A stretch of 22,043 nucleotides of DNA from a virus: IMG/VR virus record IMGVR_UViG_3300022220_000025, positions 1 through 22,043 of that record. One strand, written 5' to 3'. This document shows, in pieces, positions 1 to 22,043 of this stretch. The position numbers were made by a program, and so were the translations under genes. The notes beneath the pieces are model-generated. The model saw only the letters and a program-made list of their open reading frames with translations. It had not been told where the DNA came from and did no database searches. Position 1 is the stretch's first letter. Each line of letters starts with the position of its first letter.

Positions 1-31
1 TGAGTATTACTTGATTGATTATTCCTCTCAT
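1..31 (-). CDS. Possible start of a gene running off the left edge
   Basis: An ATG at 29-31 opens a minus-strand frame that stays open for ten codons (MRGIINQVIL) to the window edge. It follows an A-rich stretch (AAAAAGTT just before the ATG), which is the usual look of starts in this genome, and lies right after the strong terminator at 44-81. Nothing can be said about function. It could equally be a chance ATG, and I see no convincing promoter between the terminator and this codon. Confidence 0.25.
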   Translation of the reverse strand, partial: MRGIINQVIL

Positions 32-43
32 AACTTTTTAAAT

Positions 44-81
44 AAAAAAAATGGAGCTGCTAGTGTTACCTAACAACTCCA
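44..81 (-). terminator. Intrinsic terminator closing the early module
   Basis: On the minus strand a 12-bp stem (bases 70-81 with 52-63, including two G-U pairs in RNA) closes a 6-base loop (64-69) and is followed by eight U residues (plus-strand A run 44-51). It is the strongest hairpin-plus-U-tract in the window and lies about 70 bases past the stop codon of the last early gene. Confidence 0.85.
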
Positions 82-119
82 CACAAAACAACTGATGACA
101 AGACAATTATTGTTAGGAA

Positions 120-131
120 TTACAAATGTAA
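120..131 (-). promoter_or_regulatory. Palindrome with an embedded -7-like element
   Basis: The 12-base palindrome TTACAAATGTAA contains, on the minus strand, TACATTTG, a match to the flavobacterial -7 consensus TAnnTTTG. No TTG was found at the expected -33 spacing, so this is only half a promoter. It could be an operator, a weak promoter for a short RNA ending at the 44-81 terminator, or chance in AT-rich DNA. Confidence 0.25.
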
Positions 132-149
132 CAATTTTATTTTAACTAA

Positions 150-386
150 TTAAGTTATTAACTTTTTAGACTTCTCATCTATAATTTTTTTTGCTAATAA
201 TATTTCTTGTTCAATTCCTATTAACTTTTCAAGGTATACAGTTAAGTCCATAGCTTCTTCCTGTGCGTGTATAAGCCATTCTAAGCTACTTAAGTCAACT
301 CGCTCCATAGTTGTGCCATACTTTTTTTTGCCGACCTCAGCTCTATCAAGTATCTTACTGCACACTTTGTTTTCTATACTACTCAT
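150..386 (-). CDS. Small MazG-like / EExxD-helix protein
   Basis: A 78-residue protein with no signal peptide or membrane segment. The stretch KYGTTMERVDLSSLEWL followed by HAQEEAMDLTVYLEKL resembles small phage proteins related to the MazG/all-alpha NTP pyrophosphohydrolases, where an EExxD helix binds magnesium; here that is E-E-A-M-D. The protein is shorter than a full four-helix MazG domain, so it may be a minimal or non-catalytic version. I place the start at the ATG at 384-386, which gives an ATGA overlap with the preceding 45-residue gene; a TTG three codons upstream is less likely. It is the last gene before the 44-81 terminator. The family call is tentative and rests on motif resemblance only. 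Confidence 0.7.
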   Translation of the reverse strand: MSSIENKVCSKILDRAEVGKKKYGTTMERVDLSSLEWLIHAQEEAMDLTVYLEKLIGIEQEILLAKKIIDEKSKKLIT

Positions 387-520
387 GAGCCACAATTTTC
401 ACAATCTTCATCATCTATTGAGCAGGTTTCAGGTTGTTCCTTATCTTCTAAGTCTACAATCCAACTCTCCCATGTTTCCTTTGCAATCTCTTCGTTGCGT
501 TTCTTTTCGTCTTCGCTCAT
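383..520 (-). CDS. Small acidic protein with three C-terminal cysteines
   Basis: A 45-residue, strongly acidic protein. The N-terminal half is charged and probably helical (SEDEKKRNEEIAKETWESW). The C-terminal end carries three cysteines in about twelve residues (TCSIDDEDCENCGS), which could bind a metal or pair with a partner. It is supported by its junctions rather than by homology: its ATG overlaps the stop of the upstream 25-residue gene (TAATG) and its TGA overlaps the start of the next gene (ATGA). I do not recognise the family. Confidence 0.65.
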   Translation of the reverse strand: MSEDEKKRNEEIAKETWESWIVDLEDKEQPETCSIDDEDCENCGS

Positions 521-597
521 TACTTTTTGTTAAATGATTCTACAATTACTGTTAATGCTATTGCAGTTGTTGCAATTATTATGACGTTTTGTACCAT
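520..597 (-). CDS. 25-residue single-pass membrane peptide
   Basis: The 25-residue product is almost entirely one hydrophobic helix (VQNVIIIATTAIALTVIV) with a short charged tail (ESFNKK), as in small phage inner-membrane proteins. The leader AAACAAGATTA precedes the ATG and nearly repeats the leader shared by the genes at 5602 and 14102. The stop overlaps the next start (TAATG), and the gene follows the VRR-NUC stop by only two bases. Its small size makes it uncertain, but the tiling supports it. Function unknown. Confidence 0.5.
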   Translation of the reverse strand: MVQNVIIIATTAIALTVIVESFNKK

Positions 598-599
598 GT

Positions 600-947
600 T
601 TAATCTTGTTTAAAATAGTTATCAATTGTTTCTTTTGCATCGTCAAAGCCTGTGCAAACTTTTGCAAGGTAACCTCTATTGTTAAGGTTTACAATCCATG
701 CCTTTTGAGATGGGCTTGCATAATTGCCTTTTACCTTAAGCTCTATCGCTAAACCATTAAATCCGTTTCTTGCTTCATAGATAAATAAATCTGGGAAACC
801 TGCAACATATCCTGTCCTCTTGGCTTTGAGCCTTTGCGAATGATACTTTTGATATTGCCCTCCTAAAGATGCACAATACAAAGCTCTATATTCCATCTTT
901 AAATAGGAAACAATAGCAGTTTGTAGTTTGTCCTCTACTGCTTTCAT
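600..947 (-). CDS. VRR-NUC domain nuclease
   Basis: A 115-residue protein that is essentially one VRR-NUC domain, the PD-(D/E)XK-like nuclease family often found stand-alone in phages near replication genes. The expected landmarks are in order: an N-terminal helix (KLQTAIVSYLK), then GFPDLFI with the catalytic Asp at 53, IELKVK with Glu69 and Lys71, and SPSQKAW with Gln81 in the last conserved helix, ending in a GFDDA helix typical of the family. A role in processing branched or damaged DNA during phage replication or packaging is inferred from the family. The ATG lies in an ATGA overlap with the 28-residue gene upstream. Confidence 0.88.
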   Translation of the reverse strand: MKAVEDKLQTAIVSYLKMEYRALYCASLGGQYQKYHSQRLKAKRTGYVAGFPDLFIYEARNGFNGLAIELKVKGNYASPSQKAWIVNLNNRGYLAKVCTGFDDAKETIDNYFKQD

Positions 948-1030
948 TTTCTTTTGTCTTTACCTCTTGGCATTTCTGGAGGAGTAAATCCAAACATCAA
1001 CCAAAATGTATCAAATTTAACGTATTTCAT
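944..1030 (-). CDS. 28-residue linker gene between methyltransferase and nuclease
   Basis: This 28-residue frame (begins MKYVKFDTFWLMFGF, ends PRGKDKRK) fills exactly the gap between the methyltransferase and the VRR-NUC gene, with ATGA overlaps at both ends (1027-1030 and 944-947). Double overlap makes chance unlikely. The product has an aromatic N-terminal half and a basic tail. I recognise no family; it could be a translational coupling device as much as a functional peptide. Confidence 0.5.
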   Translation of the reverse strand: MKYVKFDTFWLMFGFTPPEMPRGKDKRK

Positions 1031-1698
1031 ATTATCCTTAATTGTGCTTTATGCTGATTAATTCTTTTCATTGATGCTTCGTAATAGTCTTTGTCTAATT
1101 CACAAGCAGTTAAGTCATATCCTAAGTTATGGCAAGCTATTGCTATTGAGCCACTACCTAAATGAGTGTCTAGTATTTTATCGCCCTCTTTAGCGTAGTT
1201 CATTAAAAGCCACTCATATAATTTAACAGGCTTTTGTGTTGGATGAAATCTACCACCATTTCTATTATTATCTGCTAAAGCACCACCTCTACTAAAGTCA
1301 AAAGTTCTCATTGCTTTTTGTGTTTCAGAATACCAAGCCAGCTCTCCATCTGCTAAACTAAAATCTCTTTGCATTTTATTCCAAATTAAAAAGCTATTAG
1401 AATAACTCCATATAAAAGGAAAATAATTACCACCCCATATAATTTGCTTTTTACTTACTCTAAATAATTCTTTAAAATATTCTTCATTAGGTGTTTCGTT
1501 ATCCCAATCAGTAACCTTATATTCTTTCCATCCTCTACCAGCTTTGCTTTTATTGTTTGCTTTTTTTCTACTTAATGCTGCTGAATTTTGTGCTTTATCT
1601 GCTCCAATACCATAAGGAGGGTCTACAATAGCTAAATCGAAATAGTTGTCCTCGTACCTAGCCATTAACTGCATGTTATCTTCGTTTGTTATTGTCAT
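1027..1698 (-). CDS. DNA methyltransferase, N4/N6 beta-class
   Basis: A 223-residue site-specific DNA methyltransferase. DPPYGIG (catalytic motif IV) is at 26-32 and the AdoMet-binding motif comes late as DTHLGSGS at 177-184, preceded by HPTQKP at 152-157. The order motif IV, target-recognition region, then motif I defines the beta class of amino-methyltransferases (N6-adenine or N4-cytosine). THL replaces the usual PFx in motif I, a form I recall from other phage methyltransferases. No cognate restriction enzyme is next to it, so it is an orphan, likely protecting phage DNA from host restriction or marking it. Target sequence is unknown. The start is fixed by an ATGA overlap at 1695-1698. 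Confidence 0.92.
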   Translation of the reverse strand: MTITNEDNMQLMARYEDNYFDLAIVDPPYGIGADKAQNSAALSRKKANNKSKAGRGWKEYKVTDWDNETPNEEYFKELFRVSKKQIIWGGNYFPFIWSYSNSFLIWNKMQRDFSLADGELAWYSETQKAMRTFDFSRGGALADNNRNGGRFHPTQKPVKLYEWLLMNYAKEGDKILDTHLGSGSIAIACHNLGYDLTACELDKDYYEASMKRINQHKAQLRII

Positions 1699-1871
1699 TG
1701 CTCTTTAATTATTTCGTAAAACTCTTTGTCTATTTTCTTAATATCTTTTTGTATCTCTTTCCAAGCCTTTGCAACTTCTTTCTCTCCTCCAATATCTTTC
1801 TTGCTTCCTGTGCCAGAGTTTGCAACATGAGATGCATTAAGTTCTAATAACTCGCTTATCCTCTTATCCAT
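1695..1871 (-). CDS. Small charged helical protein
   Basis: A 58-residue lysine- and glutamate-rich protein, soluble and mostly helical (EKEVAKAWKEIQKDIKKIDK), with no cysteine or membrane segment. It fills the gap between the 226-residue gene, which it overlaps by 8 bases, and the methyltransferase, which it overlaps as ATGA. Both junctions fit the tiling of this operon. The family is not recognised. Its position suggests expression with the replication and methyltransferase genes. Confidence 0.65.
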   Translation of the reverse strand: MDKRISELLELNASHVANSGTGSKKDIGGEKEVAKAWKEIQKDIKKIDKEFYEIIKEQ

Positions 1872-2544
1872 TGTCTAGTATTTTATATATTTCTTTTCTT
1901 AGGTTTTTCTTTGCTTTCTTCCACTTACCGAAATGCATCCTTAAGGCTTTCTCTCTGCACATTATTACAGGATGGAATTGTTTGCGTTTATTGTGAACAA
2001 ACTTTTTCCTTGCAACTATCTCCTCCTGCACCTCTTCCCACATTTGCTCTTTGTCCTTTGTTGTTAGCACAATAAAGTTGTTAAGCTCTAGCCATTGGAA
2101 TGCTTGGTTAATTCCTTGGAAAGTAATATCCTCCCCTTTGCAATGCTCTTCAAATGGTTCTATAACACAAAGCTCTAGGAACTCCTTAAGCACCTCGTCT
2201 TTGTCTATGTTCTGAGCATTCGATTCTATTAGTAATCGTTCGCCATCTTGCGACTGCTCAATCCTTAATTTGTTAGTTTTCATCTTTTGTTTGTTTAGCC
2301 AATTAAACCATGTTCTTGGATTGATTGCAAGCTGCTCTCCCTCTCTCACTCCTTTGTGAAATGCCTGAGTAACATCAGCAGCAGTCAATCTAAAAAACTT
2401 ATCGTTTAAATCGTTCATTAAAATGTTTGCTAATACTTTCCTGTCTGACTCAGCTTTGTTCTGACTCATCTCAAACAATGCTTTGTTTAAAGTCTTAAAG
2501 CAAAAGTCAAGTAATTGTTCTGTCGGTTGTTTTCCTATTTCCAT
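1864..2544 (-). CDS. Unknown replication-module protein next to the initiator
   Basis: A 226-residue soluble protein directly after the initiator gene (four bases between them). It is helical and charged. A central stretch AADVTQAFHKGVREGEQL followed by NPRTWFNWLNKQKM looks like a small helical DNA- or protein-binding unit, and the C-terminus is very basic (HFGKWKKAKKNLRKEIYK). I see no Walker A motif, so it is not an obvious AAA+ helicase loader. Its place suggests an accessory replisome or loader-like partner of the initiator; this is inference from context only. The family is common in Bacteroidota phages in my recollection but without a firm function. Confidence 0.8.
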   Translation of the reverse strand: MEIGKQPTEQLLDFCFKTLNKALFEMSQNKAESDRKVLANILMNDLNDKFFRLTAADVTQAFHKGVREGEQLAINPRTWFNWLNKQKMKTNKLRIEQSQDGERLLIESNAQNIDKDEVLKEFLELCVIEPFEEHCKGEDITFQGINQAFQWLELNNFIVLTTKDKEQMWEEVQEEIVARKKFVHNKRKQFHPVIMCREKALRMHFGKWKKAKKNLRKEIYKILDNG

Positions 2545-2548
2545 TCCG

Positions 2549-3199
2549 CTAATCTAGTAAATTTTTATTTGACATCAAATCGCCGAAGTATTCCTCGCTC
2601 AATCCTTTTTTCTTTGGCTTGGCATTCCTTATCCATCTATTTGCTGCGAGCTTCCACTTTTTCATCGCGTTTCTGCCCACTTTCCAACCATTGCTTTCGT
2701 AATACTCAAAGAAATTAATTGCCTCGCTTAAATCAAAGTTTTTTAATCTAAAATAATCTTCAACGATCGAGAGAGAAGATGGTTTACCATCTCTATTAGT
2801 TCTTGTAGTATTAATACTTGTAGTATTATCCTTTAACTTATCTTCAATAGGGGTAGGCAACATTTCTTCAATACCCCCCTTAACTTTTCTTATAGGGGTG
2901 TTTAACTTTTCTTTAATAGGGGTAACTGATATAATTCGCTTATCAATCTGCTTAGTTCCAGAAATGTAAAGCATTTGCACATGAATGTACTTTTTATCTG
3001 CTAATTGCTTTATCCATTTAGAGATTGATGTATTTGATACATTGTAAAGACCTGCAAAGTATCCATTGCTTGCCCAACATTTACCTTTCTTGTTAGATAA
3101 TGCAGTAATCTCTGAGTACAGGAGCTTGGCATTTGGTGTTAAGTCTTTGTCATACCTAACCGATGCAGTCAATATTGAGTAATAATTTGGTTGTTCCAT
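2549..3199 (-). CDS. Replication initiator with N-terminal HTH_36 domain
   Basis: A 216-residue protein. Residues 1-90 (YYSILTASVRYDKDLTPNAK, then a winged helix-turn-helix including NVSNTSISKWIKQLADKKYI) match the HTH_36 layout of phage replisome organisers. A linker at about 95-145 repeats TPI three times (VTPIKEKL, NTPIRKV, PTPIEDKL). The C-terminal domain (about 150-205) carries NFFEYYESNGWKVGRN and WKLAANRWIRNAKPKKK, the helicase- or partner-binding end seen in such proteins. The inferred role is binding the phage origin and recruiting the replicative helicase. The DNA of the linker holds iteron-like repeats. Its own -7 element overlaps a terminator just upstream, suggesting separate control from the preceding genes. 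Confidence 0.82.
   Translation of the reverse strand: MEQPNYYSILTASVRYDKDLTPNAKLLYSEITALSNKKGKCWASNGYFAGLYNVSNTSISKWIKQLADKKYIHVQMLYISGTKQIDKRIISVTPIKEKLNTPIRKVKGGIEEMLPTPIEDKLKDNTTSINTTRTNRDGKPSSLSIVEDYFRLKNFDLSEAINFFEYYESNGWKVGRNAMKKWKLAANRWIRNAKPKKKGLSEEYFGDLMSNKNLLD
2777..2923. repeat. Iteron-like repeat cluster, candidate replication origin
   Basis: Inside the initiator gene there are three near-identical units with consensus TTAACTTTTCTTTAATAGGG plus GT: 2833-2854, 2880-2899 (two bases shorter) and 2902-2923, with a degenerate unit at 2862-2879 in which GGGG is replaced by a C run. Next to them lie a 12-base direct repeat (CTTGTAGTATTA at 2802-2813 and 2817-2828) and a 16-base palindrome (AGATGGT, TT, ACCATCT at 2777-2792). 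Repeats inside the initiator gene are the arrangement of lambdoid origins. Function is inferred; the repeats also encode the TPI repeats of the protein linker, which is an alternative reason for them. Confidence 0.6.
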
Positions 3200-3208
3200 A
3201 GTTTTGTT

Positions 3209-3221
3209 TTGTCAAAGGTAA
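3209..3221 (-). promoter_or_regulatory. Putative promoter -7 element of the initiator gene
   Basis: On the minus strand TACCTTTG (3214-3221) matches TAnnTTTG, and it overlaps the palindrome TTTGTCAAA (3209-3217) that recurs at two other early promoters. The expected -33 region falls in the terminator hairpin at 3221-3244 and has no TTG, so any promoter here is weak or activator-dependent. The ATG is about 15 bases downstream. Confidence 0.4.
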
Positions 3222-3244
3222 AAAAAAAGGAGCATTACGCTCCT
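3221..3244 (-). terminator. Intrinsic terminator between SSB-like and initiator genes
   Basis: AGGAGC (3228-3233) pairs with GCTCCT (3239-3244) around a 5-base loop, and the minus-strand RNA continues into a U run of about eight (A run 3221-3228). It sits six bases after the stop codon of the DUF3127 gene. The stem and loop are nearly repeated at 5404-5420. Confidence 0.75.
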
Positions 3245-3249
3245 CTCAT

Positions 3250-3567
3250 TTAAAATGGCATTGAATCTTCTGCTGAAGATGTTGGTTGTTCAGACTCGAA
3301 ACCCTCTAATTTTTCAACTTTCCAAGCTTTTAAACTCACAAAATGTCTGTCCTTCCATTCTCTACCACTTATGTTAATACTAATCTCGTAGTTCTGACCT
3401 ACTTTTAAGCCCTTTACAAGAGCTATTCCTTTATCCTGCATAAACTCTATCGGAACATCTGCATCGTACTCTGTATCGGCTTGTTTCAAGATAACCTCTT
3501 GCTTCTTGAATTTGTCAGATATAACTTGTACATCTTTAATTTTAAGGATTGTTCCTTTTAGCTGCAT
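3250..3567 (-). CDS. DUF3127 single-strand DNA-binding-like protein
   Basis: A 105-residue protein matching my recollection of DUF3127, a Bacteroidota family with an OB-fold that is thought to act as a single-stranded DNA-binding protein. It opens with the beta-rich LKGTILKIKDVQVISDKFKK, continues through a central VPIEFMQDKGIAL segment and GREWKDRHFVSLKAWKV, and ends in a serine/acidic tail terminating DSMPF, which mimics the acidic MPF/IPF tip through which SSB recruits replication partners. Sitting between the DnaA-like protein and the initiator, it is the likely SSB of this replication module. It overlaps the upstream gene by 10 bases. Confidence 0.85.
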   Translation of the reverse strand: MQLKGTILKIKDVQVISDKFKKQEVILKQADTEYDADVPIEFMQDKGIALVKGLKVGQNYEISINISGREWKDRHFVSLKAWKVEKLEGFESEQPTSSAEDSMPF

Positions 3568-4258: not shown

Positions 4259-4260
4259 GT

Positions 4261-4635
4261 CTATTTTCTTTTAAAATCATCAGCTTCATCTTCTCCAAAA
4301 TGCCCAAGCTCATAAAAGCCTGTTAGCTTTAGAACTGCTCTGCTCATTGCACGCTTCTCAGCCATTGCAACAGGATAAGCATTTGATGTGTTGTTTGGAG
4401 CTGATTCGCCAAATGTTTGAATTACCTTATCGCCACTCTTTGCCGTTGCCTTAATGATAATACATTTGTTATCTCCTGAGTTGTGCAGCAGTTGGTAATC
4501 AATCTCAATGTTGTTATTGGCTTGTATCTTATCGATTCCAGATCTAGAGATAATTGTGTAGAACTTATGCTTGAATACATCGTCAGCAGTCAATCCGTTC
4601 TTCTTGTACAATTCGTTTAGTTTGTCTTTATTCAT
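4261..4635 (-). CDS. Possible single-strand annealing/recombination protein
   Basis: A 124-residue protein with a beta-rich N-terminal half (NNNIEIDYQLLHNSGDNKCI, IIKATAKSGDKVIQTFGES) and a conserved-looking helical C-terminus, AYPVAMAEKRAMSRAVLKL followed by TGFYELGHFGEDEADD. The AEKRAxxRAxLxL helix with an acidic tail resembles parts of Rad52/Erf/Sak-type phage annealing proteins, which would suit a gene just upstream of the SSB-like protein. The match is a recollection of pattern, not a proven homology, and the protein is shorter than typical Erf or Sak3. The ATG follows the stop of the preceding gene by one base (TAAGATG). The gene contains one of the nine GATC sites. Confidence 0.75.
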   Translation of the reverse strand: MNKDKLNELYKKNGLTADDVFKHKFYTIISRSGIDKIQANNNIEIDYQLLHNSGDNKCIIIKATAKSGDKVIQTFGESAPNNTSNAYPVAMAEKRAMSRAVLKLTGFYELGHFGEDEADDFKRK

Positions 4636-4636
4636 C

Positions 4637-4834: not shown

Positions 4835-4835
4835 C

Positions 4836-5044: not shown

Positions 5045-5053
5045 TAAAAAATT

Positions 5054-5383: not shown

Positions 5384-5403
5384 TGTTTTGTCTTTAGGGT
5401 TAA

Positions 5404-5420
5404 AGGAGCATTACGATCCT
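5404..5420 (-). terminator. Hairpin related to the 3221-3244 terminator, probably leaky
   Basis: AGGAGC, loop ATTAC, GATCCT forms the same hairpin as at 3228-3244 with one mismatch in the stem. The U tract is only three long, so termination is likely weak or absent. It starts two bases after the stop of the 60-residue gene. It may act as an attenuator or RNA-processing site between the first and second early genes. Confidence 0.4.
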
Positions 5421-5421
5421 A

Positions 5422-5748: not shown

Positions 5749-6843
5749 TTAAAAAAAATGTGTTAGCCTTGCGACTTGTCCTCTATCGAACTCATGTACA
5801 AACGCTTCTACTGCTTTTGAAGAGCCTGTAAACCCTTTTCTTGAATGCCATGAATCTGCTGCACTTGGACTTCTTAAATACTCGACAGTTACTCCGATGA
5901 AATCCTTTGCATCTCTCCATTTATGTTTCACTTTGTGATGTAGATGGTGTAAATACCAATATCTATATTTAGTTGCTGCCCATAGATCTGGTCTTTCTTG
6001 TGCCATTAACAATGGTAAATTATCCATTTTAGCACCATCGCCATGCTCTAAGCCTATTAAATTAATTCCGTACTTATAATACTTTCGATGTGCAACTCCT
6101 GCATCAACTGAAACGTCTTTTGTATTCCTGAACCAAGCCTTTAAAGCATGTGCCAAATGAAATCCACTTTGATAGTCATGATTGCTCATTGAGTGTACGC
6201 AGTCAACAGGTGCAACTTCTCTCAGCATCTCTACGCATTTAACATAGAGCTGCAATGCTATCTCGTAATGTTCCCACCATTTGCCATCGCAATCTTGTGG
6301 TGTTCCTTTTGTTGTGGTGTTATATACATTATCTACATGCAGTATATCGTTTCCTATGCAGAATAAAACCCTATCAATCTCAAAGCCTTTTGATTTTTGT
6401 ATCAAACCTTGCACTCCCTCAATAACTCTAGATACTGCAATAGGAATGTTGTAATCTTCTCCTGTTTCCTCTGCGTTTGCGTATTTGCCTATATGAATAT
6501 CAGCAGGATTGATTACTAATAGATGCCGACCTGCTTTGTGTTTGATTTTTGGATAGGTTGGTGCATGGTTTTCAATGAATGTATTGAGCCTACTAAATAT
6601 GCCATCTTCATCAATGCCAGAATCTTCCTTTGTAACAACTGAGAACCTAAGTTCCCCACCCATGTTTTGCCAATGCTTGACAGAAACAACGTCTTTTTTG
6701 TCAATCCCTCGCTCTTGTAAATGTAAATCAAGAGCTGAATTGTCATTGATGTTTTCTAAGGTGTTTGCTCTGTGCTTTTTGATTAGTTCAATCTCACTAG
6801 GTTTTAACCTCATACGATTCCAACCATCTTTTTTCTTTGTCAT
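5749..6843 (-). CDS. Calcineurin-like metallophosphoesterase
   Basis: A 364-residue protein with the full metal-binding motif series of the calcineurin-like phosphoesterase fold: DIH at 115-117, GNDILHVDN at 164-172, SNHD at 220-223, EHGD with His267, and HLH at 300-302. Two metals are expected. The closest functional relatives by motif are Mre11/SbcD-type nucleases and other phage phosphoesterases; the substrate is unknown but DNA is plausible. The N-terminal 100 residues are not part of the fold and start with a basic, possibly DNA-contacting helix. It is the last gene of the lysis-like cassette, overlapping its neighbour as TCAT at 6840-6843, and is followed by a terminator. Late expression suggests a role in DNA packaging or host DNA turnover (inference). 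Confidence 0.85.
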   Translation of the reverse strand: MTKKKDGWNRMRLKPSEIELIKKHRANTLENINDNSALDLHLQERGIDKKDVVSVKHWQNMGGELRFSVVTKEDSGIDEDGIFSRLNTFIENHAPTYPKIKHKAGRHLLVINPADIHIGKYANAEETGEDYNIPIAVSRVIEGVQGLIQKSKGFEIDRVLFCIGNDILHVDNVYNTTTKGTPQDCDGKWWEHYEIALQLYVKCVEMLREVAPVDCVHSMSNHDYQSGFHLAHALKAWFRNTKDVSVDAGVAHRKYYKYGINLIGLEHGDGAKMDNLPLLMAQERPDLWAATKYRYWYLHHLHHKVKHKWRDAKDFIGVTVEYLRSPSAADSWHSRKGFTGSSKAVEAFVHEFDRGQVARLTHFF

Positions 6844-7052
6844 GCTTTAGAGAATACAGTGAAACATAATGGCAAGATAGCAATAAAACTTAACATGACG
6901 TTAAGCTCCGTTAATCCATTTGCTGCCATGTCTGAAACTGCTGCCGTAACTAGCACTCCACTTACTGAACGCTTTGCACTCCACTTCTTTTGACGTTGTC
7001 CTTCTTGGAAGACTTCACTAATCTTGCCGACTGCTTTCGCTATTGCTCTCAT
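6840..7052 (-). CDS. Putative small membrane protein, holin-like
   Basis: A 70-residue protein with a basic N-terminal 28 residues (including EGQRQKKWSAKR) followed by two hydrophobic stretches, SVSGVLVTAAVSDMAANG and LNVMLSFIAILPLCFTVF. This basic-then-hairpin layout recalls small class II holins and unnamed membrane proteins common in marine Bacteroidota phages. It overlaps the 36-residue gene upstream by 35 bases in another frame and the phosphoesterase by four. Its neighbourhood, two genes from the endolysin-type peptidase, supports a lysis role; this is inference. Confidence 0.65.
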   Translation of the reverse strand: MRAIAKAVGKISEVFQEGQRQKKWSAKRSVSGVLVTAAVSDMAANGLTELNVMLSFIAILPLCFTVFSKA

Positions 7053-7410: not shown

Positions 7411-7766
7411 CAGTACAACCACATTACTTGTTGTGGCGATTCTGCATCGTCATCAGCATGAATAAAAGATTTAGCTATTCCAATGCGTGTAAATCCTGCA
7501 TCAAGCAAGCCTCTCACAATTTGCATTCTTTGGTATGAACTCATACAGGAAATATCAAATGCAGTTCCTCTTAAATGTGCTGAATTTGGTTTTCCTCCGA
7601 CTTCCATATTATGTGCTTTGCTTCTCCAAGAGCTTGTTATTGTAAAAGGTACATCAGCAAACTCTCTTGCCAGATCTAAACGCTCTAAAGACTTCTTATT
7701 AATCTTATCAAAGCAATTTTTCCCATCACAGGTAAACTCTTCCTTTATAAAAAATCTAGGATTCAT
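7410..7766 (-). CDS. Peptidase M15 family endolysin
   Basis: A 118-residue zinc peptidase of the M15 (D-Ala-D-Ala carboxypeptidase/VanY-like, M15_3) family. SAHLRGTAFD at 62-71 supplies zinc ligands His64 and Asp71, and FIHADDD supplies the third ligand His103 with Asp105 nearby; SSWRS at 45-49 is the usual upstream motif. The domain fills the whole protein, with no signal peptide and no cell-wall-binding domain, so export probably depends on a holin. It would cut peptidoglycan stem peptides to release progeny. Two cysteines near the N-terminus (C13, C18) are unexplained. It is flanked on both sides by tiny membrane proteins. Confidence 0.9.
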   Translation of the reverse strand: MNPRFFIKEEFTCDGKNCFDKINKKSLERLDLAREFADVPFTITSSWRSKAHNMEVGGKPNSAHLRGTAFDISCMSSYQRMQIVRGLLDAGFTRIGIAKSFIHADDDAESPQQVMWLY

Positions 7767-10249: not shown

Positions 10250-10651
10250 TTAATCTTCTGTGTTATAGTAAACGTAATTCCTTGCAGTTGGGTTTGCATA
10301 CTCAGTAAATGTAACCTCACTATCTGCATCTATTATCATTGTACCCTCCCATCGTAAACCAAGTACAACGGCATCTGTTGGACTTGTATTTGTATCATTC
10401 GTTTGCTCATATACAACAACATTGTAAAATGAGTTTGTCTTTAATGCATTAAATGGAGCTGCGTTTGTTGGTACATCAAATCTTATTGCTCTTTGCGATC
10501 TGGCAACAGGAGAAATTACTCCGTATGTTGCAACTCTTGTTTGGTCATCTATTACACCAATCAAAAAGTAATTACCCTCAGCATCTACACATTGATTGTA
10601 GATATTTAAAGACAATTTATTTATCGCAACACTTTGTAGCCAATGCTCCAT
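10250..10651 (-). CDS. Hypothetical virion-associated protein
   Basis: A 133-residue, beta-rich protein with no signal peptide. Strand-like stretches (NYFLIGVIDDQTRVATYGVI, FYNVVVYEQTND, MIIDADSEVTFTEYANP) and lack of charge clustering suggest a structural protein, possibly a tail completion or head-closure subunit. It sits between small unknown genes and the portal, five bases from the portal start. No family recognised; the structural role is inferred from composition and position. Confidence 0.7.
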   Translation of the reverse strand: MEHWLQSVAINKLSLNIYNQCVDAEGNYFLIGVIDDQTRVATYGVISPVARSQRAIRFDVPTNAAPFNALKTNSFYNVVVYEQTNDTNTSPTDAVVLGLRWEGTMIIDADSEVTFTEYANPTARNYVYYNTED

Positions 10652-11198: not shown

Positions 11199-13835
11199 TT
11201 AATTTGTATGTGCAGATAAACCTGCGTTATAATTGTTTTCTACTTCTGTTGCTGATAATTCTGCATCATAAAGTCTTACATCGCTAATTAAGTTATGATA
11301 ATGTCTTGAAAATCCATTGTTAGGAATACTCGTTGCATCTCCACCCACTCGTTTATTAGCTGCGTTTGTTATAGTAAGTATCGGATTTTGTGTAGTTGTA
11401 GCAGGATTTTCTAAATCAGTTGATGCGTAAAGTTTTACATTACCACTTGCATCCCTAGTTAATGCAAAATAAAACCAATCTCCTTCACTTAGCCCTGCTG
11501 AAAGTTCAAGTTCTACTCCACCAAACCAAGCAGATATTTTGCCACCTGTTTCTGTGTTTAAAGAAAATCCTGCACTTGTATTTGCACTATCTTCTAAGTG
11601 TGTGTAAATAGTATTCAAAGAACTTCCTTGGTTTACAAAAGCATACTTAGCCCATCCATCAAAAGAAAAAGCACCTGTACCAAAATCTAAATCAGTATCA
11701 TCAGCCACCTCAGCATAACCACTTCCGTCTAAATTAAACGAGTTCAATCTATCTCGAACTGCGTTACCGAAGATGTCCTGTGTTGGTATAGTTGGGTTAG
11801 CTATAACAATTGAGTTCGATGTTGCTGCTCCGTCTGTAAATCTGTAAACACCTGCTGACGAACCCTCAACTAATTGAGCCCCATAAATAAGAGCCTTACC
11901 GAGACAATCGGAATCTTGAGTACCACTTGCATCGGCTGAACCAATTATTGTAAACCTGTTACCTGTAATTGCATCAGTTGTCTCTAATCTTTGCCAAATA
12001 CTTGTTAACGCTATTTTTTCACTTGTTCCTGTATTCCAAGCAGCCCTATTGTTGTTTGTTATTCTAATATGTGTTGCACTTCCTGTTGGAGCTTGTTTAA
12101 CCCAAACAGAATGTGTTGAAGATGTTAAAGTTGCGTTAGTAGTTGCATATCTAATATAAGCATCGCTTTCTGATGCTTGCATTGTAATTGAATAAACATC
12201 GCCTTGTCCGTAAGGAGCTGCTTCGCTTGCTGCTAACAACACTTGTGATGTGGTTGGGGCAATTACCCACTCAGTAAAATCCTCACTATAAGGAAACAAA
12301 TTACTTCCCTTACTCCAATTCTGCATACCTAGTTGTGGTATTCTTGGTTGAGCATCAACGTAGTCAGCTCCAAGAATCAAACCTCCGTGGTTGGATGCGG
12401 TTACTTCTCGAACTGATACGTTAGATATAGAGCCATCAAAAAACTCATTCGCTTGAATATAAATTGTATCTGATGTTGATGCCTCAATAATTATAGTGTA
12501 AGTATCTGCTTCAGTTATAGTAAGCTGAGAATTTGAAGTACCTGTAAAAATCCCTAAAGAACCTGCATCTACCGAATCAACTGTAATTATAGTTTTATAT
12601 ACTTTACCTGGCGTATAAACAACTTGTGATAAATTAGAATTGGTTGTTTGTGTGCCATCACAAGTAGCCTTATTATTAACTACATCAATATCCCAACCTG
12701 TACCCTTTGACCAATCAGAATCAGTAGCAAAATCTCCATTAACAACATCTTCCTCTTCCAAATTAGTTCCACTATCATAAGCTAATTTACCATCGCCCTC
12801 ACTCATCGCCCAATAACCTTTTAAGTTTGTAACGACTAAATTCGTACTAGGGTTATCTATTGCAAGTTTATTTGGGTTTGCATAATCGTATGCGATGTCA
12901 TCGGCTGACCAAGTTTCATTATAAAATTGAACATCAGAAATAGCAAAATGACCATAAACACTACTATAAACTTTACCTATTTGTAAAGTCGTTGTTATCC
13001 ATTCATCAAAAGTTAATACAACTCTTTGCCAAACATCTTGTGTTACTGCTGAAGTTTGAATATTATTTACATAAGGAGTGAAGTTAGTAAAATAACTTGT
13101 TGCTGATATGTTACCACTTGTAATAGATATTTGTCTAAATTGTGGAAAACTAGACAAACCTAAATAAAATAACCCCTCATTACTTACAGATAAAGGTTTT
13201 ATCCAAAAACTAATAGTTTTGATAGGTATTTGTGCAGTTCCAAAATCAATTTCATCATTTAGCCCATCAAGCTCAATCGCCTTACCTGTAAACAACTCGC
13301 CTACATTATTGTTACCCGATTTGTCAGGTGTGATTTGGGTTATTTCTTTTAAAGATACGTTACTAAGAGAAAAAGAAGTTCCGTTAGTATGTCCTTTAAA
13401 AGCAAGAGTACTTTGATTTGTCGAAGATGTAAACGTAACTACATAGGAATCATTTGCTCTATAAGTGTAAGGAGAATATACCTCGCTTGCAGCTTGATTG
13501 CTTATTTGCATCCTTGACTGTCCTGAGCTATCCTCAATGTCAAATGACACTTGATACGTCTTACCTGCAATTATAGTTAGCCCACTTTGACTTATATAAG
13601 ATATTGCAGTATCATCATACAACGCCTTATTATTGTTAATACTCCAAGCGGAACTTTGAAAAATCCAATTTACATTTGGTAAAGGAAAATTACCATCAAC
13701 AAATTCCTCCCTACCTAATGTTTCGCTCGTTTCAAATCCAAGCCACATCTTTAGATTGGTTGTGATAACAGATGCTGCTGCAACCCCTGCACTTATAAAG
13801 CTGCTTATTGTATTTTGTATAATGTTTACTAACAT
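11199..13835 (-). CDS. LamG-containing tail fibre / receptor-binding protein
   Basis: An 878-residue modular protein. Residues 1-40 are a short hydrophobic N-terminus that may anchor it to the virion. About 45-170 and 360-485 are two related jelly-roll-like modules sharing the pattern DGNF/NGDF, W, NNKA and GKxY. About 185-325 and 690-878 are two LamG/concanavalin-like domains, recognisable by AIELDGLNDEIDFG and FNLDGSGYAEVADDTDLDFG at their starts and DVQFYNETWSADDI and DVRLYDAELSATEV at their ends. About 505-685 is another beta-rich module (NLFPYSEDFTEWV). Such architecture is typical of fibres or spikes binding cell-surface polysaccharide; I see no hydrolase motif. It likely determines host range (inference). 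Confidence 0.82.
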   Translation of the reverse strand: MLVNIIQNTISSFISAGVAAASVITTNLKMWLGFETSETLGREEFVDGNFPLPNVNWIFQSSAWSINNNKALYDDTAISYISQSGLTIIAGKTYQVSFDIEDSSGQSRMQISNQAASEVYSPYTYRANDSYVVTFTSSTNQSTLAFKGHTNGTSFSLSNVSLKEITQITPDKSGNNNVGELFTGKAIELDGLNDEIDFGTAQIPIKTISFWIKPLSVSNEGLFYLGLSSFPQFRQISITSGNISATSYFTNFTPYVNNIQTSAVTQDVWQRVVLTFDEWITTTLQIGKVYSSVYGHFAISDVQFYNETWSADDIAYDYANPNKLAIDNPSTNLVVTNLKGYWAMSEGDGKLAYDSGTNLEEEDVVNGDFATDSDWSKGTGWDIDVVNNKATCDGTQTTNSNLSQVVYTPGKVYKTIITVDSVDAGSLGIFTGTSNSQLTITEADTYTIIIEASTSDTIYIQANEFFDGSISNVSVREVTASNHGGLILGADYVDAQPRIPQLGMQNWSKGSNLFPYSEDFTEWVIAPTTSQVLLAASEAAPYGQGDVYSITMQASESDAYIRYATTNATLTSSTHSVWVKQAPTGSATHIRITNNNRAAWNTGTSEKIALTSIWQRLETTDAITGNRFTIIGSADASGTQDSDCLGKALIYGAQLVEGSSAGVYRFTDGAATSNSIVIANPTIPTQDIFGNAVRDRLNSFNLDGSGYAEVADDTDLDFGTGAFSFDGWAKYAFVNQGSSLNTIYTHLEDSANTSAGFSLNTETGGKISAWFGGVELELSAGLSEGDWFYFALTRDASGNVKLYASTDLENPATTTQNPILTITNAANKRVGGDATSIPNNGFSRHYHNLISDVRLYDAELSATEVENNYNAGLSAHTN

Positions 13836-14195: not shown

Positions 14196-14214
14196 CTAAT
14201 ATTATATACCAGAT

Positions 14215-14772
14215 CTATGAATCTACAACTGTAATACTACCAAGAGCATCAAATATTGTAGTAGCTCCCTCTTCAATAATTAGAGCTGACCTTTTTTCCC
14301 TAGATGTTATCGTCAATGTATAGCCACTCATATCGCCAAGAGCTTTACCCAAAGCAACAGTTCCACCTGTAACAGTAGCACCATTGTAAGCACCTACTAA
14401 ATAACAATTTCCAAATCCTTTACTTTCAATTATGTTATTATCCTCTGTGAAGATTTGAAAGCGACCTTGTGTCAATAAGCGAAGAGCAGAAAGTGCTGCC
14501 TTGCTTAAATTTGGTAACATTAGTGTAGTTACTTGCTCATAAAATACTGTACCATTGTCCTCAGACACAGTAATAGTTTCAGTATATTCAGAGCTTTGAG
14601 GGTTCAAGGCATATTTGAATACATTTGTTGTACCTGCAACGGCAGTTAACTGTCCGTCTGAGTCTACTGTATAAGCTCCAAGTGTATCATGATTAGCAAA
14701 ATAGACGTTTCTTAAACCACCTACTGCTTCTCTACACTCTAAGCCTCTACCATTTAATAATGCACATGCCAT
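14215..14772 (-). CDS. Putative major tail (tube) protein
   Basis: A 185-residue beta-rich protein directly after the major capsid gene. The opening MACALLNGRGLECREAVGGL, the central ETITVSEDNGTVFYEQV, and the end VTGGTVALGKALGDMSGYTL followed by TITSREK match a widespread Bacteroidota phage structural family as I remember it; the final GDxxGYxLTxT strand is reminiscent of tail-tube folds. A tube role would fit the presence of a tape-measure-like protein, but a head-tail adaptor or minor capsid protein is also possible. Four cysteines (C3, C13, and a pair of context cysteines later) are not placed as a metal site. Confidence 0.6.
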   Translation of the reverse strand: MACALLNGRGLECREAVGGLRNVYFANHDTLGAYTVDSDGQLTAVAGTTNVFKYALNPQSSEYTETITVSEDNGTVFYEQVTTLMLPNLSKAALSALRLLTQGRFQIFTEDNNIIESKGFGNCYLVGAYNGATVTGGTVALGKALGDMSGYTLTITSREKRSALIIEEGATTIFDALGSITVVDS

Positions 14773-14783: not shown

Positions 14784-15683
14784 TTATGCGTAAAGAACGA
14801 TGTCTGCACGAGTAGAGTAACCTACACCTGCATTGAACTTCATTACTAGATTAACATTATCTGAACCATCAACCATAGTTTGGTCTAATAGCTTGACCTC
14901 AGTCATATCTCCCTCTAAATCTGTTGCAAAGAACAAGTTAGATTTACGACCTGCTACCATTACGTTAGCTGCCATACCTGGACACCACTTAATTGGAATA
15001 CCCTCAAAGTTTGACTCAGTTACACCTGCATGGTATTGGTTTAAGTAACCTAAAGCTGCTTGTGCTGAGATGTAAGATTTGAATGCTGCCGTACCCATAA
15101 AGATACATAAGTCATCTTGTCCGTAAACTGCGTCTGCAATTCCATCACGAACTTTACCAATTTCAGCAATTACGTTTCCTGCATTGATACCACCACCAAC
15201 TGCTGCTACATCTGCACCACCATCGGCAGTAAGTAACGCTTGGAATCCATCAAACTCTCCACCTGTTGCTGCTGCACCTTGCCAAATTGACTTCTCTACT
15301 TGCTGCCCTACTAAAGAACCTGCATAAGAGATTAAGTAAGTTGCGAAGTCAGATTGTAAAGTACCATCTAAACCTGCTCTCATGTTTGCACCTGCCCAAG
15401 TTGAAAGCCAATCGTTTTTACACAATGCTCTGTTTACTTGTAAACGCTTTGGTGCAAGAGCTTTCTCAACGTAAGTAACATCTCCAGCACTTGTAAAGTC
15501 ACAAGTTGCATCTGCTACTGCTGCTGCATCTAAATTAAAATTGTTTAGGTTTACTTTGAATGCTACGTTTGGTAACACAGTTAAGTAACCTTTTGCTAAT
15601 GTCTCTCCACTTAGTAGAGATGCTGACATAAATCCTGCAGCAGCTTTACCTGCGTACAGTTTTGTGTAAGTATCATTTGGCAT
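14784..15683 (-). CDS. Major capsid protein, HK97 fold
   Basis: A 299-residue major capsid protein. The order of landmarks fits the HK97 fold: an N-terminal arm, a beta-rich segment (GDVTYVEKALAPKRLQVNRA), the spine-helix region (FATYLISYAGSLVGQQVEKS with IWQG and EFDGF following), a P-domain helix (GNVIAEIGKVRDGI), the A-domain with FMGTAAFKSYI, EGIPIKWCPGM and NLFFATDLEGD, and a final RADIVLYA strand. It is preceded by protease and scaffold-like genes, the classic maturation order. At 299 residues with no long delta domain, cleavage by the protease would act mainly on the scaffold. It is three bases from the scaffold gene. Confidence 0.88.
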   Translation of the reverse strand: MPNDTYTKLYAGKAAAGFMSASLLSGETLAKGYLTVLPNVAFKVNLNNFNLDAAAVADATCDFTSAGDVTYVEKALAPKRLQVNRALCKNDWLSTWAGANMRAGLDGTLQSDFATYLISYAGSLVGQQVEKSIWQGAAATGGEFDGFQALLTADGGADVAAVGGGINAGNVIAEIGKVRDGIADAVYGQDDLCIFMGTAAFKSYISAQAALGYLNQYHAGVTESNFEGIPIKWCPGMAANVMVAGRKSNLFFATDLEGDMTEVKLLDQTMVDGSDNVNLVMKFNAGVGYSTRADIVLYA

Positions 15684-16338: not shown

Positions 16339-16995
16339 TTACTTTTTGTTTGTTTTATTTTCGCTATCCTTGATGATTTGTCTGAGCTTACTTAATACAT
16401 CTTCTTTCTCCATTTTAATGCCCTCAGATTCTTTAGTATCAAAGTAGCCCTCAATAGAGAAACCTTTAACCTCGCCCTCTTTTATATAGTTGCTCCAAAC
16501 ATCTTCGTTCTCAATCTTCATGCAAGCAACCCAAGTTCCAACAGGATAATTGAACCCATGCAATGCAGACTTGTCAATCTTTGAATCTTCTACAATCCAA
16601 GTTTCGATTGTGGTAACTCCGTTAACTGCTCTCTCATGACCTAAAGTTGCAGATTGATGTTTGCTATTAATCATGTAAAGCTCCTCAACTCTGCGTATCG
16701 TTTCCTTACTAAAGAAGCAATTATACTTCTCGCCCTCTGCATCAACTCTTAATATAGGCATGTCAGGAATCATTACTGCACCCATGACAATGCGTTTCTC
16801 ATCGCTTAACGTTGCAAACTTTTGAGGCTTTCCAGATCTAGAGAAATACATAAAGTTTTCTTCTATCGCCGGGTCTTCTACTAAGCTAATAGCAAAGACA
16901 CCAACATCTGCATCGTTCTCGTTAAGTACGAACTCAACTAATTTCATTTTGTCGTATTTCTTTTTTTTACGCTTCTCTTCGTCTTTCTTTTTCAT
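16339..16995 (-). CDS. XkdF-like capsid maturation protease (S78_2)
   Basis: A 218-residue protein of the XkdF-like phage serine protease family. The diagnostic start VFAISLVEDPAIEENFMYF is at 33-51. GAVMIPDMPILR follows, then LGHE with the probable catalytic His120, ETWIVED, and VKGFSIEG with the catalytic Ser180. It would cleave scaffold and capsid N-termini during maturation. The first 16 residues are extremely lysine-rich (MKKKDEEKRKKKKYDK); the ATG used lies in a TAATG junction with the tape-measure gene, but Met17 (MKLVEF) matches where the family normally begins, and the A-rich codons before it could act as its leader. Either start is possible. Confidence 0.85.
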   Translation of the reverse strand: MKKKDEEKRKKKKYDKMKLVEFVLNENDADVGVFAISLVEDPAIEENFMYFSRSGKPQKFATLSDEKRIVMGAVMIPDMPILRVDAEGEKYNCFFSKETIRRVEELYMINSKHQSATLGHERAVNGVTTIETWIVEDSKIDKSALHGFNYPVGTWVACMKIENEDVWSNYIKEGEVKGFSIEGYFDTKESEGIKMEKEDVLSKLRQIIKDSENKTNKK

Positions 16996-18476: not shown

Positions 18477-18607
18477 ATCTCTTTTTTAAATTGTTGCCAT
18501 GCTTCTATCATTGATGTTGGATATTTAAAAGCTCCAAACAATACTTTGTTCTCTTCCGTTTCTTTGATTTGGTTAGATGTAACCAACCTTATAACTTCGT
18601 TTATCAT
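18455..18607 (-). CDS. Small helical protein between tail genes
   Basis: A 50-residue protein (begins MINEVIRLVTSNQIKETEEN; then VLFGAFKYPTSMIEAWQQF) that fills the apparent gap between the 988-residue gene and the tape-measure-like gene. It starts in an ATGA overlap at 18604-18607 and runs 22 bases into the next gene. In this position tail assembly chaperones are usual, but it is much smaller than G/GT-type chaperones and no slippery sequence was noted. Function unknown. Confidence 0.65.
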   Translation of the reverse strand: MINEVIRLVTSNQIKETEENKVLFGAFKYPTSMIEAWQQFKKEIWQKSTN

Positions 18608-21570
18608 GGTGCTGCCGTTACTCTTTCTAAGATTATTTTTGCTCCGTTTATATGCTTAGTTGCGTTTAAGCTGCTACATTTTATCGTCCAATATGTACCC
18701 TTGCTTGCATATTGACCGCTTAAACTTACAGTTGAATTTATTGCAGTTGTAGTTCCTACTTCTGTACTTGTATCAATATCAACATCTGATGTATAAACAT
18801 TAAAGTTTGACGATGTGTCATTACCATATACAACAACTGAATTAGCTCTATAACCTAATGGAAGTTGAAAAGATGCATATAAGTTTGAGCTTGCACTAGA
18901 TGGTTTTATATGCCCTCCGTTATCATGCATTATACCACTTGCACCAGAATTAGAATCTTCTGCTAAGAAATCTCTTGCAGTAAGATACATCTCAGTATCG
19001 TAAATTGTGCCTATGTTCTGCCCTCTTATTGGAACTGTGCTAGGGAACTCTGTGCGTGTTACCCATTCAGTATTTTCGTTTGTTACATCGTAACTTAAAA
19101 CATTGTTTGTCTTTGCCTCCTCGCCTATTCTCCTAACTGTACCCTCTAGGTATATCTGTGTTGATTCGTTTACTACAACGCTTGATGCAGTTTGTCCGAC
19201 TATAACTTCGCCACCTGTAGTATTTACATTCTTATTTTGATTGAATACAATCGGAGATGGTACAGGTTCGTGTGGCAAGACAGTTGTATTCCAATAACAA
19301 ACATTGTCTATAAAGCTAAAGTTGTTAGCCTCGCAACATGATTGTGTTGGAGTAGTTGATGCACCTGATGAATTTACCCAAGTTGTAGTTCCGTTTAAGT
19401 TTGTTGATAATAATTCTAAATCACAATCAAAAACAAGCATTGAATCATTAAATACTCCCTCAATAGATTTTATCAGCTCTACCTTTGTACTTTGGTTTTT
19501 ACCTAAAGCATAAGATGTAATTTTGTTAATTCTATAATACGAGTTTTGAACAAAAATTTTATCGTTGTACTTAAACTGAGCAATGTCTTCTGGAGTAAGA
19601 TAAAAGTTTGCAGTCAGTATTCTTGCTTCCTCACTATATATATTGTTTAAATACTTTCTCCAACACTTTGCGTATGTATCGTTTACAGTTGGTTGGTTAA
19701 CATAAAATTGTGAATCAAATACACCTTTAGTTTTAAATCTTATATCTGAATCAGTAGAAATAACACTATCGCCACTCATTAAATAATGATTGCAAAAAGG
19801 GTAAGATGTTTCTGTTGTATATCCACCTGTTGCTTGACTCCAATATCTGTATGGTTGGCAAGACTTTAAACCACTATAAGCAAACAGTCTAGGTTTAATC
19901 TCTACAAAAGTAGGTTCTCCATTATCCCATTTGTAAGGCATTGCAATGAGCATGTTATGACCTTGTGGTCTTTTGGTATTCCATGAAGAAAATATTGTTT
20001 TAATCTCTAAATCATCCTTTCCAAAATCGCCATTAAAATCAGCAGTATAACTATTGTAAACCTCATCAAATGTATCTTGCCAATAATAGTTAAGTCTGTC
20101 CTCATCTTCTAAATCAAACATGTTAATGCGTTCTTTTCTGAACTCATTTGTTGGCTTTAGCTTAACATCTTTGTTTAAATCTATTTTGTTACTCCAATCC
20201 TTACTTGTTCCTGCATCAAAATAATCTTGTGCAGGTTCAATATTTAATTGTCTAGGAATTTCTTTGTCAAGCTCAATTATTAAATTGTACCTAGAGCATA
20301 TTGCACTAATAAAATCAACTTGCTTTTCAGTTGGTAAAATATTATTGTTAGCTGATAAATCAATAGTAGAACCCTCTTGCGAAACAGGTGCAGCATATAA
20401 TTCAAAAGATGAACCTGTTGAGTTTATTGTTAATGTCTGACTTACTGAGTTCATTACTATTTGCAAATAAATCTCATCGCCACCTTGTAAAGTTATATCA
20501 TTTGTTACAATCTCTAATTGTTGGGTTCCTACAACAGTTGTAAAAGGAGAGTAATCTGTTCCATTCCATTGCCCAAACACCTCAGAAGAAAATGAAGCAT
20601 CATTTAATTTTTTAACAAATAGCTTTGTAATTGTTTGTGTATTTGATGCAAAAGTATAGGATAGTTTTATTTTAAATTGATGGTTACCTGTTAAAGGTAC
20701 GTTGTAGTGTGGTGTTGATGCTCCTGCATCATAATTACCATGCCCATCAAAAAAGTTACCTCCAGAATCAGTATCAAATGAAATCGTCGCAGTAACTGCA
20801 TCGTCTAAATCTTGTTCTTGTGAAATACCTGCTCTAAAACTATCTTGAAAAGTTGAAGCAACCACTTGCACAGAATTAGCTAAAGTCATGTATTGCTTTG
20901 CAAAGAAATCAGTTGCAAAGAATGTAGAGCTTATTGTATAACCTATTGAAGATAACACCTTTTCAAATAATACCTTTAATTTAATTGCAGGCTTTAGTCT
21001 TGCAGGATATAATGCTGCTAATGGTGCGTTTAAAGATGCATTATCATAGTCATAACCATAATCAGCAATCGGATATAGTATTTCCTCTCCTGTCTGCCCT
21101 ACTGATGTTGTGTAAGTTGTGTCTCCACTCCATGAATCCTTAACATTTGCAGCAGTAAGCACATGGCTAAACTCAGACAAGTCTAATTCATTAAGCTGCT
21201 TCTCATCTAATGAAGTTGCAATGTTTGATATTACACCAAAAACTAGAGCTTCATAATACTTTGTTGAATTGTTTACATTTAGCAGTTGTAAATAACCACT
21301 AAAGACAATATTTGAATCCACATAAATATCTGCCTCGCATTTTATAGAACTATTAAAAGAACCATTAACTGAAACAACATCATAAAAATGACTAAAAAAA
21401 TCATTGTTCACTTGTGTAAATGGCAATGTAAACGCTTGAGTAAAATCAGACTTTTGCGATGCCAGATCTTGTATCTCTTTAGCTGAGTAATTACCTTTGA
21501 TAGATACATCGCTTACATCTAAATAATGTAAATCAGTTCCTCCTTGCTCTTTTACAACTAACTGAACCAT
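18604..21570 (-). CDS. Large tail/baseplate structural protein
   Basis: A 988-residue protein, the largest in the window. The N-terminal region (DVSDVSIKGNYSAKEIQDLA, SQKSDFTQAFTLPFTQVNN, FFSHFYDV) matches my recollection of a large structural family in Bacteroidota phages, with a beta-rich core thought to belong to the tail tip or baseplate. The middle is beta-rich with repeated YNV, LNI and WNG motifs. Near 740-760 there is a cysteine cluster (SCCEANNFSFIDNVCYW), likely disulfide or metal. The C-terminal 200 residues look like a receptor-binding or fibre-attachment domain with a fibronectin-like pattern. No enzyme motif is seen. It touches the next genes at base 21570 and through an ATGA overlap at 18604-18607. 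Confidence 0.75.
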   Translation of the reverse strand: MVQLVVKEQGGTDLHYLDVSDVSIKGNYSAKEIQDLASQKSDFTQAFTLPFTQVNNDFFSHFYDVVSVNGSFNSSIKCEADIYVDSNIVFSGYLQLLNVNNSTKYYEALVFGVISNIATSLDEKQLNELDLSEFSHVLTAANVKDSWSGDTTYTTSVGQTGEEILYPIADYGYDYDNASLNAPLAALYPARLKPAIKLKVLFEKVLSSIGYTISSTFFATDFFAKQYMTLANSVQVVASTFQDSFRAGISQEQDLDDAVTATISFDTDSGGNFFDGHGNYDAGASTPHYNVPLTGNHQFKIKLSYTFASNTQTITKLFVKKLNDASFSSEVFGQWNGTDYSPFTTVVGTQQLEIVTNDITLQGGDEIYLQIVMNSVSQTLTINSTGSSFELYAAPVSQEGSTIDLSANNNILPTEKQVDFISAICSRYNLIIELDKEIPRQLNIEPAQDYFDAGTSKDWSNKIDLNKDVKLKPTNEFRKERINMFDLEDEDRLNYYWQDTFDEVYNSYTADFNGDFGKDDLEIKTIFSSWNTKRPQGHNMLIAMPYKWDNGEPTFVEIKPRLFAYSGLKSCQPYRYWSQATGGYTTETSYPFCNHYLMSGDSVISTDSDIRFKTKGVFDSQFYVNQPTVNDTYAKCWRKYLNNIYSEEARILTANFYLTPEDIAQFKYNDKIFVQNSYYRINKITSYALGKNQSTKVELIKSIEGVFNDSMLVFDCDLELLSTNLNGTTTWVNSSGASTTPTQSCCEANNFSFIDNVCYWNTTVLPHEPVPSPIVFNQNKNVNTTGGEVIVGQTASSVVVNESTQIYLEGTVRRIGEEAKTNNVLSYDVTNENTEWVTRTEFPSTVPIRGQNIGTIYDTEMYLTARDFLAEDSNSGASGIMHDNGGHIKPSSASSNLYASFQLPLGYRANSVVVYGNDTSSNFNVYTSDVDIDTSTEVGTTTAINSTVSLSGQYASKGTYWTIKCSSLNATKHINGAKIILERVTAAP

Positions 21571-22043
21571 TATATCATTCTTTTTAAGTTATGTGCGTAT
21601 TGAAAAGTAAACGAGTATTGAATGAGCTTATCTTTAACTGTGGTCTTGTATTGGAATTGACTATCGATTAAAATCAAAGGCACAGGTTCTTGCAATACAC
21701 CATCATCGCCAACCTCAACAGGAGCAATTAATTGTATATCGTTTGACTGCATCATTCCTTTAAAGTAATCGTTGTACGCTTCATCTAAGTAGCCTGTGTT
21801 AACTGTTATCTGCTTTGTTCCATTAACGCTCTGCACCTTACCTCTTTCAAAGCTATCTATTGAGAATGTTGCTGCATTCCATGAACCTGCATTCCGTTCG
21901 TATTCGATTGACCTAGTCATCGAGATGCTCTCATCTGAATTGTTATTGAAATAGTGATAATCCCATGTGCCAAATTTGTTTTTCCAAGCTATTGATTGTG
22001 ATGGATATTTTGAGCATTGAGAAATCTCAAATAATAAAGGCTT
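21570..22043 (-). CDS. C-terminal part of a structural protein cut by the window edge
   Basis: The minus-strand frame is open from the edge (first codons KPLLFEISQCSKYP) through the ATG at 21920 to the stop at 21570, giving at least 157 residues. The 41 codons before that ATG look like the same protein (IAWKNKFGTWDYHYFNNNSD, ISMTRSIEYERNAG), so the ATG is internal and the gene begins outside the window. The NKFGxWDY...SxxxxRxxYxRNxG pattern belongs, as I recall, to a large virion protein family of Bacteroidota phages, often next to the big tail protein. It is beta-rich at the C-terminus (QFQYKTTVKDKLIQYSFTFQ). Function: probable tail structural component. Confidence 0.75.
   Translation of the reverse strand, partial: KPLLFEISQCSKYPSQSIAWKNKFGTWDYHYFNNNSDESISMTRSIEYERNAGSWNAATFSIDSFERGKVQSVNGTKQITVNTGYLDEAYNDYFKGMMQSNDIQLIAPVEVGDDGVLQEPVPLILIDSQFQYKTTVKDKLIQYSFTFQYAHNLKRMI

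Follow-up and report, generated by a model that had tools for sequence, protein, structure and literature searches.

GATC avoidance in a clade of marine phages and the CCAGATC context in which GATC survives

The IMG/VR virus record IMGVR_UViG_3300022220_000025 represents part of the genome of a tailed phage; this 22 kb fragment is referred to here, over its whole length of 22,043 nucleotides, as the window. This article deals with the near absence of the tetranucleotide GATC from this DNA, and with the one context, CCAGATC, in which most of the few remaining copies are found. All the main genes lie on the minus strand, and they encode portal, exonuclease, SSB-like and replication-initiation proteins, an endolysin, and an N6/N4 DNA methyltransferase (1027-1698); judging by its position, the gene at 14784-15683 is probably that of the major capsid protein. 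The closest named phages, at low identity, are Flavobacterium and Nonlabens phages, and a Flavobacteriales metagenome-assembled genome (MAG) holds one relative (73% over the exonuclease). We infer that the host is probably a marine member of the Flavobacteriales.

An exact count over the whole window yields nine GATC sites, starting at positions 2765, 4541, 5415, 5985, 7673, 10497, 14212, 16835, and 21465. The expected number is 62 under a second-order Markov model, 47 under a first-order model, and 69 from base composition. A previous sequence-only reading of this DNA had listed the same nine sites and considered them far too few, and the count bears out both statements, down to the coordinates. 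Within coding sequence, there are seven GATC against 35 under synonymous-codon shuffling of the window genes, and not one of 1000 shuffles was as low. Seven of the nine survivors are CCAGATC or its complement, six of these being CCAGATCT, again as first read, and the preference for CCA before GATC has a P of about 2e-14 when the flanks of GATA, GATG, and GATT serve as the control.

The depletion and the CCAGATC survivors are common to the fragments of the clade to which the window belongs, defined here as some 45 IMG/VR fragments with at least 87% nucleotide identity, so that both features noted in the window extend to its relatives. The nine sites are as follows, with their presence among the clade genomes that cover each position.

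2765..2768, strand not assigned: GATC outside CCAGATC; 1 of 5 covering genomes (window only)
4538..4545, plus strand: CCAGATCT (GATC at 4541); 8 of 8 covering clade genomes, window included
5415..5418, strand not assigned: GATC outside CCAGATC; 1 of 8 covering genomes (window only)
5984..5991, minus strand: CCAGATCT (GATC at 5985); 8 of 14 covering genomes
7670..7677, plus strand: CCAGATCT (GATC at 7673); 18 of 18 covering genomes, outgroups having no GATC here
10497..10503, minus strand: CCAGATC then G (GATC at 10497); GATC in 21 of 24 covering genomes
14209..14216, plus strand: CCAGATCT (GATC at 14212), intergenic; GATC in 21 of 26 covering genomes
16832..16839, plus strand: CCAGATCT (GATC at 16835); 17 of 21 covering genomes
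21462..21469, plus strand: CCAGATCT (GATC at 21465); GATC in 8 of 8 covering genomes

Altogether, 39 GATC positions of the clade align to the window, 11 of them in CCAGATC and 28 elsewhere. The mean sharing among covering genomes is 0.67 for the CCAGATC positions against 0.15 for the other GATC, a contrast that marks the former as tolerated and the latter as purged; likewise, it is 0.62 for CCAGA positions and 0.13 for CCAG[CGT]. Because the clade genomes are related, pooled counts, here and below, exaggerate the number of independent observations; there are 16 distinct CCAGATC positions, of which 11 align to the window. Some of the sites are new gains within the clade, such as that at 7670. 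At 4538, the site is kept in the outgroups L134 and L109, while CCC or CCT precedes GATC in L117, L124, and L105; the 21462 site reads CTAGATCTT in the outgroup L032; and at 10497 the base after CCAGATC is free, being T, C, A, or G among relatives, as it should be if nothing beyond CCAGATC counts. At 4538, 10497, and 21462, outgroups or siblings have differently flanked GATC, which is consistent with rescue by flank mutation. At 5984, the remaining covering genomes carry CCAGAGCT, GCAGAGCT, or TCAGAGCT.

More distant relatives L032, L134, L105, L090, and L091 are not depleted. Since the first three of these have homologous proteins, similar composition, and full GATC counts, the depletion is not imposed by the proteins. 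L134, which is 75% identical, even has an excess of GATC (117 against about 44 under a first-order Markov model), the opposite of the window.

GATC is far from the only word to be missing, a fact overlooked by the sequence-only reading. In the window, the observed and expected counts are 0/24 for GGCC, 0/21 for GCGC, 0/29 for CCAGT, 4/23 for CCAGC, 0/24 for GGTGA, 1/18 for GGNNCC, 3/21 for CTRYAG, 1/14 for GWGCWC, 1/16 for AAGCTT, 0/7 for GAATTC, and 0/4 for GATATC. Across the clade, the 64 palindromic hexamers have a median observed/expected ratio of 0.18 (0.86 for non-palindromes, and 0.89 for palindromic hexamers in the undepleted relatives), and 37 of the 64 fall below 30% of expectation. 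Non-palindromic type II sites such as GGTGA, CCAGT, GGACC, and CCTTC are nearly gone too; CCAGT corresponds, on the opposite strand, to the BsrI site ACTGG. The depletion is thus very probably a broad avoidance of type II restriction sites. A lone CACTG persists at position 6857 (1 against 38 expected), just upstream of the exonuclease gene, and 15 of 17 relatives retain it.

Also missed at first was the depletion of CCAG, which is confined to CCAG[CGT] (8 against about 68 expected in the window), CCAGA being near normal (22 against 29 overall, and 19 against 21.7 in coding sequence under the codon shuffle). A single CCAG-cutting enzyme from which CCAGA is exempt was considered and rejected: among other relatives CCAGA, CCAGC, CCAGT, and CCAGG are avoided in mixed combinations, and therefore look like separate targets. 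Depletion of CCAG does not by itself prove protection. Other marine phages, among them L138, L143, L144, L146, L209, L211, and L214, wholly lack both GATC and CCAG over 11-18 kb.

Why, then, should CCAGATC be spared? Throughout the clade it occurs 114 times against 22 expected, and it is not depleted relative to the undepleted relatives. The C three bases upstream of GATC is decisive, as ACAGATC, GCAGATC, and TCAGATC together amount to four occurrences. By comparison, CCAGATC is found twice against 28 expected in 49 other phages that are GATC-depleted and CCAGA-tolerant. The closest sisters of the clade, the L031-like phages, have no CCAGATC, and they also avoid CCAGA itself (3 against 88 expected, versus 345 against 488 in the clade). 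With CCAGA tolerated and CCAGATC surviving in the clade, and neither in the sisters, the two changes went together. No exempt GATC context in other phages matches this strength; CGGATC in L243 comes closest (P 5e-6).

A stable CCAGA-specific modification would account both for the lifted avoidance of CCAGA and for the safety of CCAGATC. The phage lineage would have lost GATC under selection by GATC-cutting host restriction enzymes, while its DNA would normally bear a CCAGA-specific modification, most likely from its usual host. Where GATC overlaps CCAGA, as in CCAGATC, it would survive, the modified base lying inside GATC and blocking the GATC enzyme. The base pair common to CCAG and GATC within CCAGATC is the G at position 4 with its partner C. 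A mark on the cytosine of 5′-TCTGG-3′ would coincide with the GATC cytosine, as fits a Sau3AI-type enzyme; one on the last adenine of CCAGA would coincide with the GATC adenine, as fits an enzyme of DpnII/MboI type. In this scheme, it is the modification, its source, the modified base, and the host that we infer. We give about an even chance to the survivors being sheltered in this way by an overlapping CCAGA modification.

Which enzyme might have exerted the selection? Flavobacteriales genomes include a Sau3AI homologue (PDB 4pxg, E 8e-78) adjoining a C5-cytosine methyltransferase. Matches over the cut-off to the MutH family, of Sau3AI type where inspected, occur in 8 of 296 genomes of the order, those to the DpnII family in 1-2 of 296, and those to DpnI in 3 of 196, numbers that describe the order as sampled. 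The sequence-only reading had named a DpnII-like system; DpnII is rejected as the selecting family because it is rare in the order, where the Sau3AI type is commoner. The latter, with its C5-cytosine methyltransferase and double MutH-like nuclease acting on GATC, is a candidate selector. The partner methyltransferase of Sau3AI modifies the C of GATC, which blocks Sau3AI. That a GATC-cutting host system drove the depletion, as first proposed, is now well supported: the depletion is common to close relatives and absent from some distant ones, many other type II sites are depleted as well, and Sau3AI-type systems exist in the likely host order. At one locus, L263 (G035:C24), a Sau3AI-like gene of the double MutH type directly adjoins a DpnI-family match, with an integrase-like gene next to them on the other strand; DpnI itself cuts methylated GATC.

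The phage carries a modification gene of its own, whose two features of concern are these.

1027..1698, minus strand: N6/N4 DNA methyltransferase with a DPPY motif (Pfam PF01555, phrog_67; PADLOC type II methyltransferase)
1245..1605, minus strand: central part of this gene (target recognition region), swapped between four clade members

In these four members the central segment is only 31-40% identical, in a clade of about 93% identity, while the gene ends are 88-100% identical. The DNA flanking 1245..1605 aligns at 91-95%, and the segment itself cannot be aligned save for some 100 bases at 80%. Each clade contig that reaches the locus has one methyltransferase of this family, and the gene looks like a cassette-swapping specificity gene. 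Across marine phages, segment types exist in dozens (at loci L208, L119, L207, L124, and about 95 more), and the L124 contig has two copies of the gene. Elsewhere in the window, positions 11300-13700, within the gene for an 878-residue protein (11199-13835), are hypervariable and mostly unalignable to relatives that are otherwise about 93% identical. Beyond the region covered by the window, L208 (12550-13008) and L119 (12898-13437) encode a ParB-like protein, with the terminase gene following, in a region clearly different between the two.

Other explanations compete with a CCAGA modification from the host. The most serious of them, ranked second and holding a minor but appreciable share of the probability, is that CCAGATC(T) is a functional phage motif, the site of a regulator, a packaging protein, or a nucleoid-like protein, kept despite restriction of GATC. 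Six coding CCAGATC are found against 1.25 under the codon shuffle (P 0.002), the word is not tied to one reading frame or strand, several sites such as 7670 are new in the clade, and the spacing of the eight persistent sites is more regular than chance would give (P 0.004, post hoc). However, the base after CCAGATC varies freely at 10497, no wider consensus emerges, roughly one in two covering genomes lacks the sites at 5985 and 18566, and coding-frame sites lie on both strands at no common position relative to genes. Such a motif would also leave the simultaneous lifting of CCAGA avoidance unexplained, and the number of sites is nearly accounted for by a model of shelter and rescue, in which GATCs lacking shelter are lost one at a time but may also be rescued by flank mutation. 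Skewed repair motifs of the Chi type are, like CCAGATCT, short asymmetric words that are over-represented, but this candidate was rejected: in 52 genomes from the family of the MAG holding the phage relative, CCAGATCT is close to its reversed-pattern control and not clearly enriched. The sequence-only reading had left the survivors as either masked by methylation or conserved for another function; masking now seems preferable, if only on indirect grounds, and another function less so, because shelter and rescue largely explain the CCAGATC excess and genomes of the presumed host family show no clear enrichment of the word.

The phage methyltransferase at 1027-1698 would be an obvious protector, being carried by the phage and having a DPPY motif typical of adenine enzymes, and its L208 counterpart has a recognition segment akin to those in L228 and L225, both of which tolerate CCAGA and avoid CCAG[CGT]. 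Yet it was set aside in that role since clade members differ in this segment: four of them carry four different versions but have the same exemption, so that a stable mark from the host is more likely than one from the current phage enzyme. Moreover, CCAGA is avoided by L172-L176, whose segment is of the window type. That this enzyme makes or made the mark, at CCAGA or CCAGATC, is accordingly improbable. Slightly more improbable still is that the GATC enzyme simply cuts CCAGATC poorly owing to its flanks. Flank effects on restriction enzymes are known, and neither a modification nor an extra enzyme would be required, but CCAGATC is purged from the 49 other depleted phages, which meet similar enzymes, the upstream C is needed, and the lifted avoidance of CCAGA is again left unexplained. 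As for the depletion arising merely from composition, codon usage, or the encoded proteins, GATC is palindromic and phage genomes are often poor in palindromes, but the codon shuffle and the full counts of L032, L134, and L105 reject chance and codon bias and leave this idea next to no credit.

Several observations weigh against shelter by a CCAGA modification. The six coding CCAGATC somewhat exceed the 2.5-3.0 given by shelter and flank-mutation rescue (P 0.04-0.08). Overlap with CCAGA visibly exempts no other avoided word, the observed and pooled expected counts being 0/18 for GGCCAGA, 0/9 for TCACCAGA, and 0/5 each for CCAGAGTC, CCAGACTC, and CCAGAGAC, expectations equivalent to roughly a single independent site apiece. 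The analysis turned up no host CCAGA methyltransferase, a homologue of the Neisseria enzyme described below not having been sought in phage or host. Finally, the clade counts come from related genomes with only 11 distinct aligned positions.

How does this compare with known systems? Avoidance of type II sites by dsDNA phages is well described, and GATC is reported as reduced in each of 46 phages with a host encoding the corresponding enzyme (Rusinov et al., 2018; PMC6286503). As in the window, the under-represented sites are short and mostly palindromic, GATC included; unlike that case, the window clade avoids a whole panel at once and has a sharp, clade-wide exempt GATC context. In Neisseria, a type IIS CCAGA cytosine-5 methyltransferase is known (PMC7973814, PMC7046676), the specificity of which equals that of the mark proposed here. 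In a Helicobacter phage, the DNA takes on host methylation, with the motifs of the most recent host (PMC12003011); there the consequence is a transient change of tropism, whereas a stable mark in the window clade would leave an evolutionary footprint. No account of context-exempt avoidance was found in the open-licence literature.

Site avoidance is well known, but a sharp tolerated context is a different kind of evidence. The clade is an extreme case of avoidance, and with 37 of 64 palindromic hexamers below 30% of expectation it points to a heavily armed host community. Somewhat short of an even chance, in our estimate, is the wider proposal that the modification of one restriction system shields phage DNA from another system at overlapping sites, and that phages keep such overlaps, and even create them by flank mutation. 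If this is true, genome sequence alone could reveal the DNA marks usually carried by an uncultured phage, and a footprint of the form "all but CCAGATC" would allow its hidden methylation history to be inferred.

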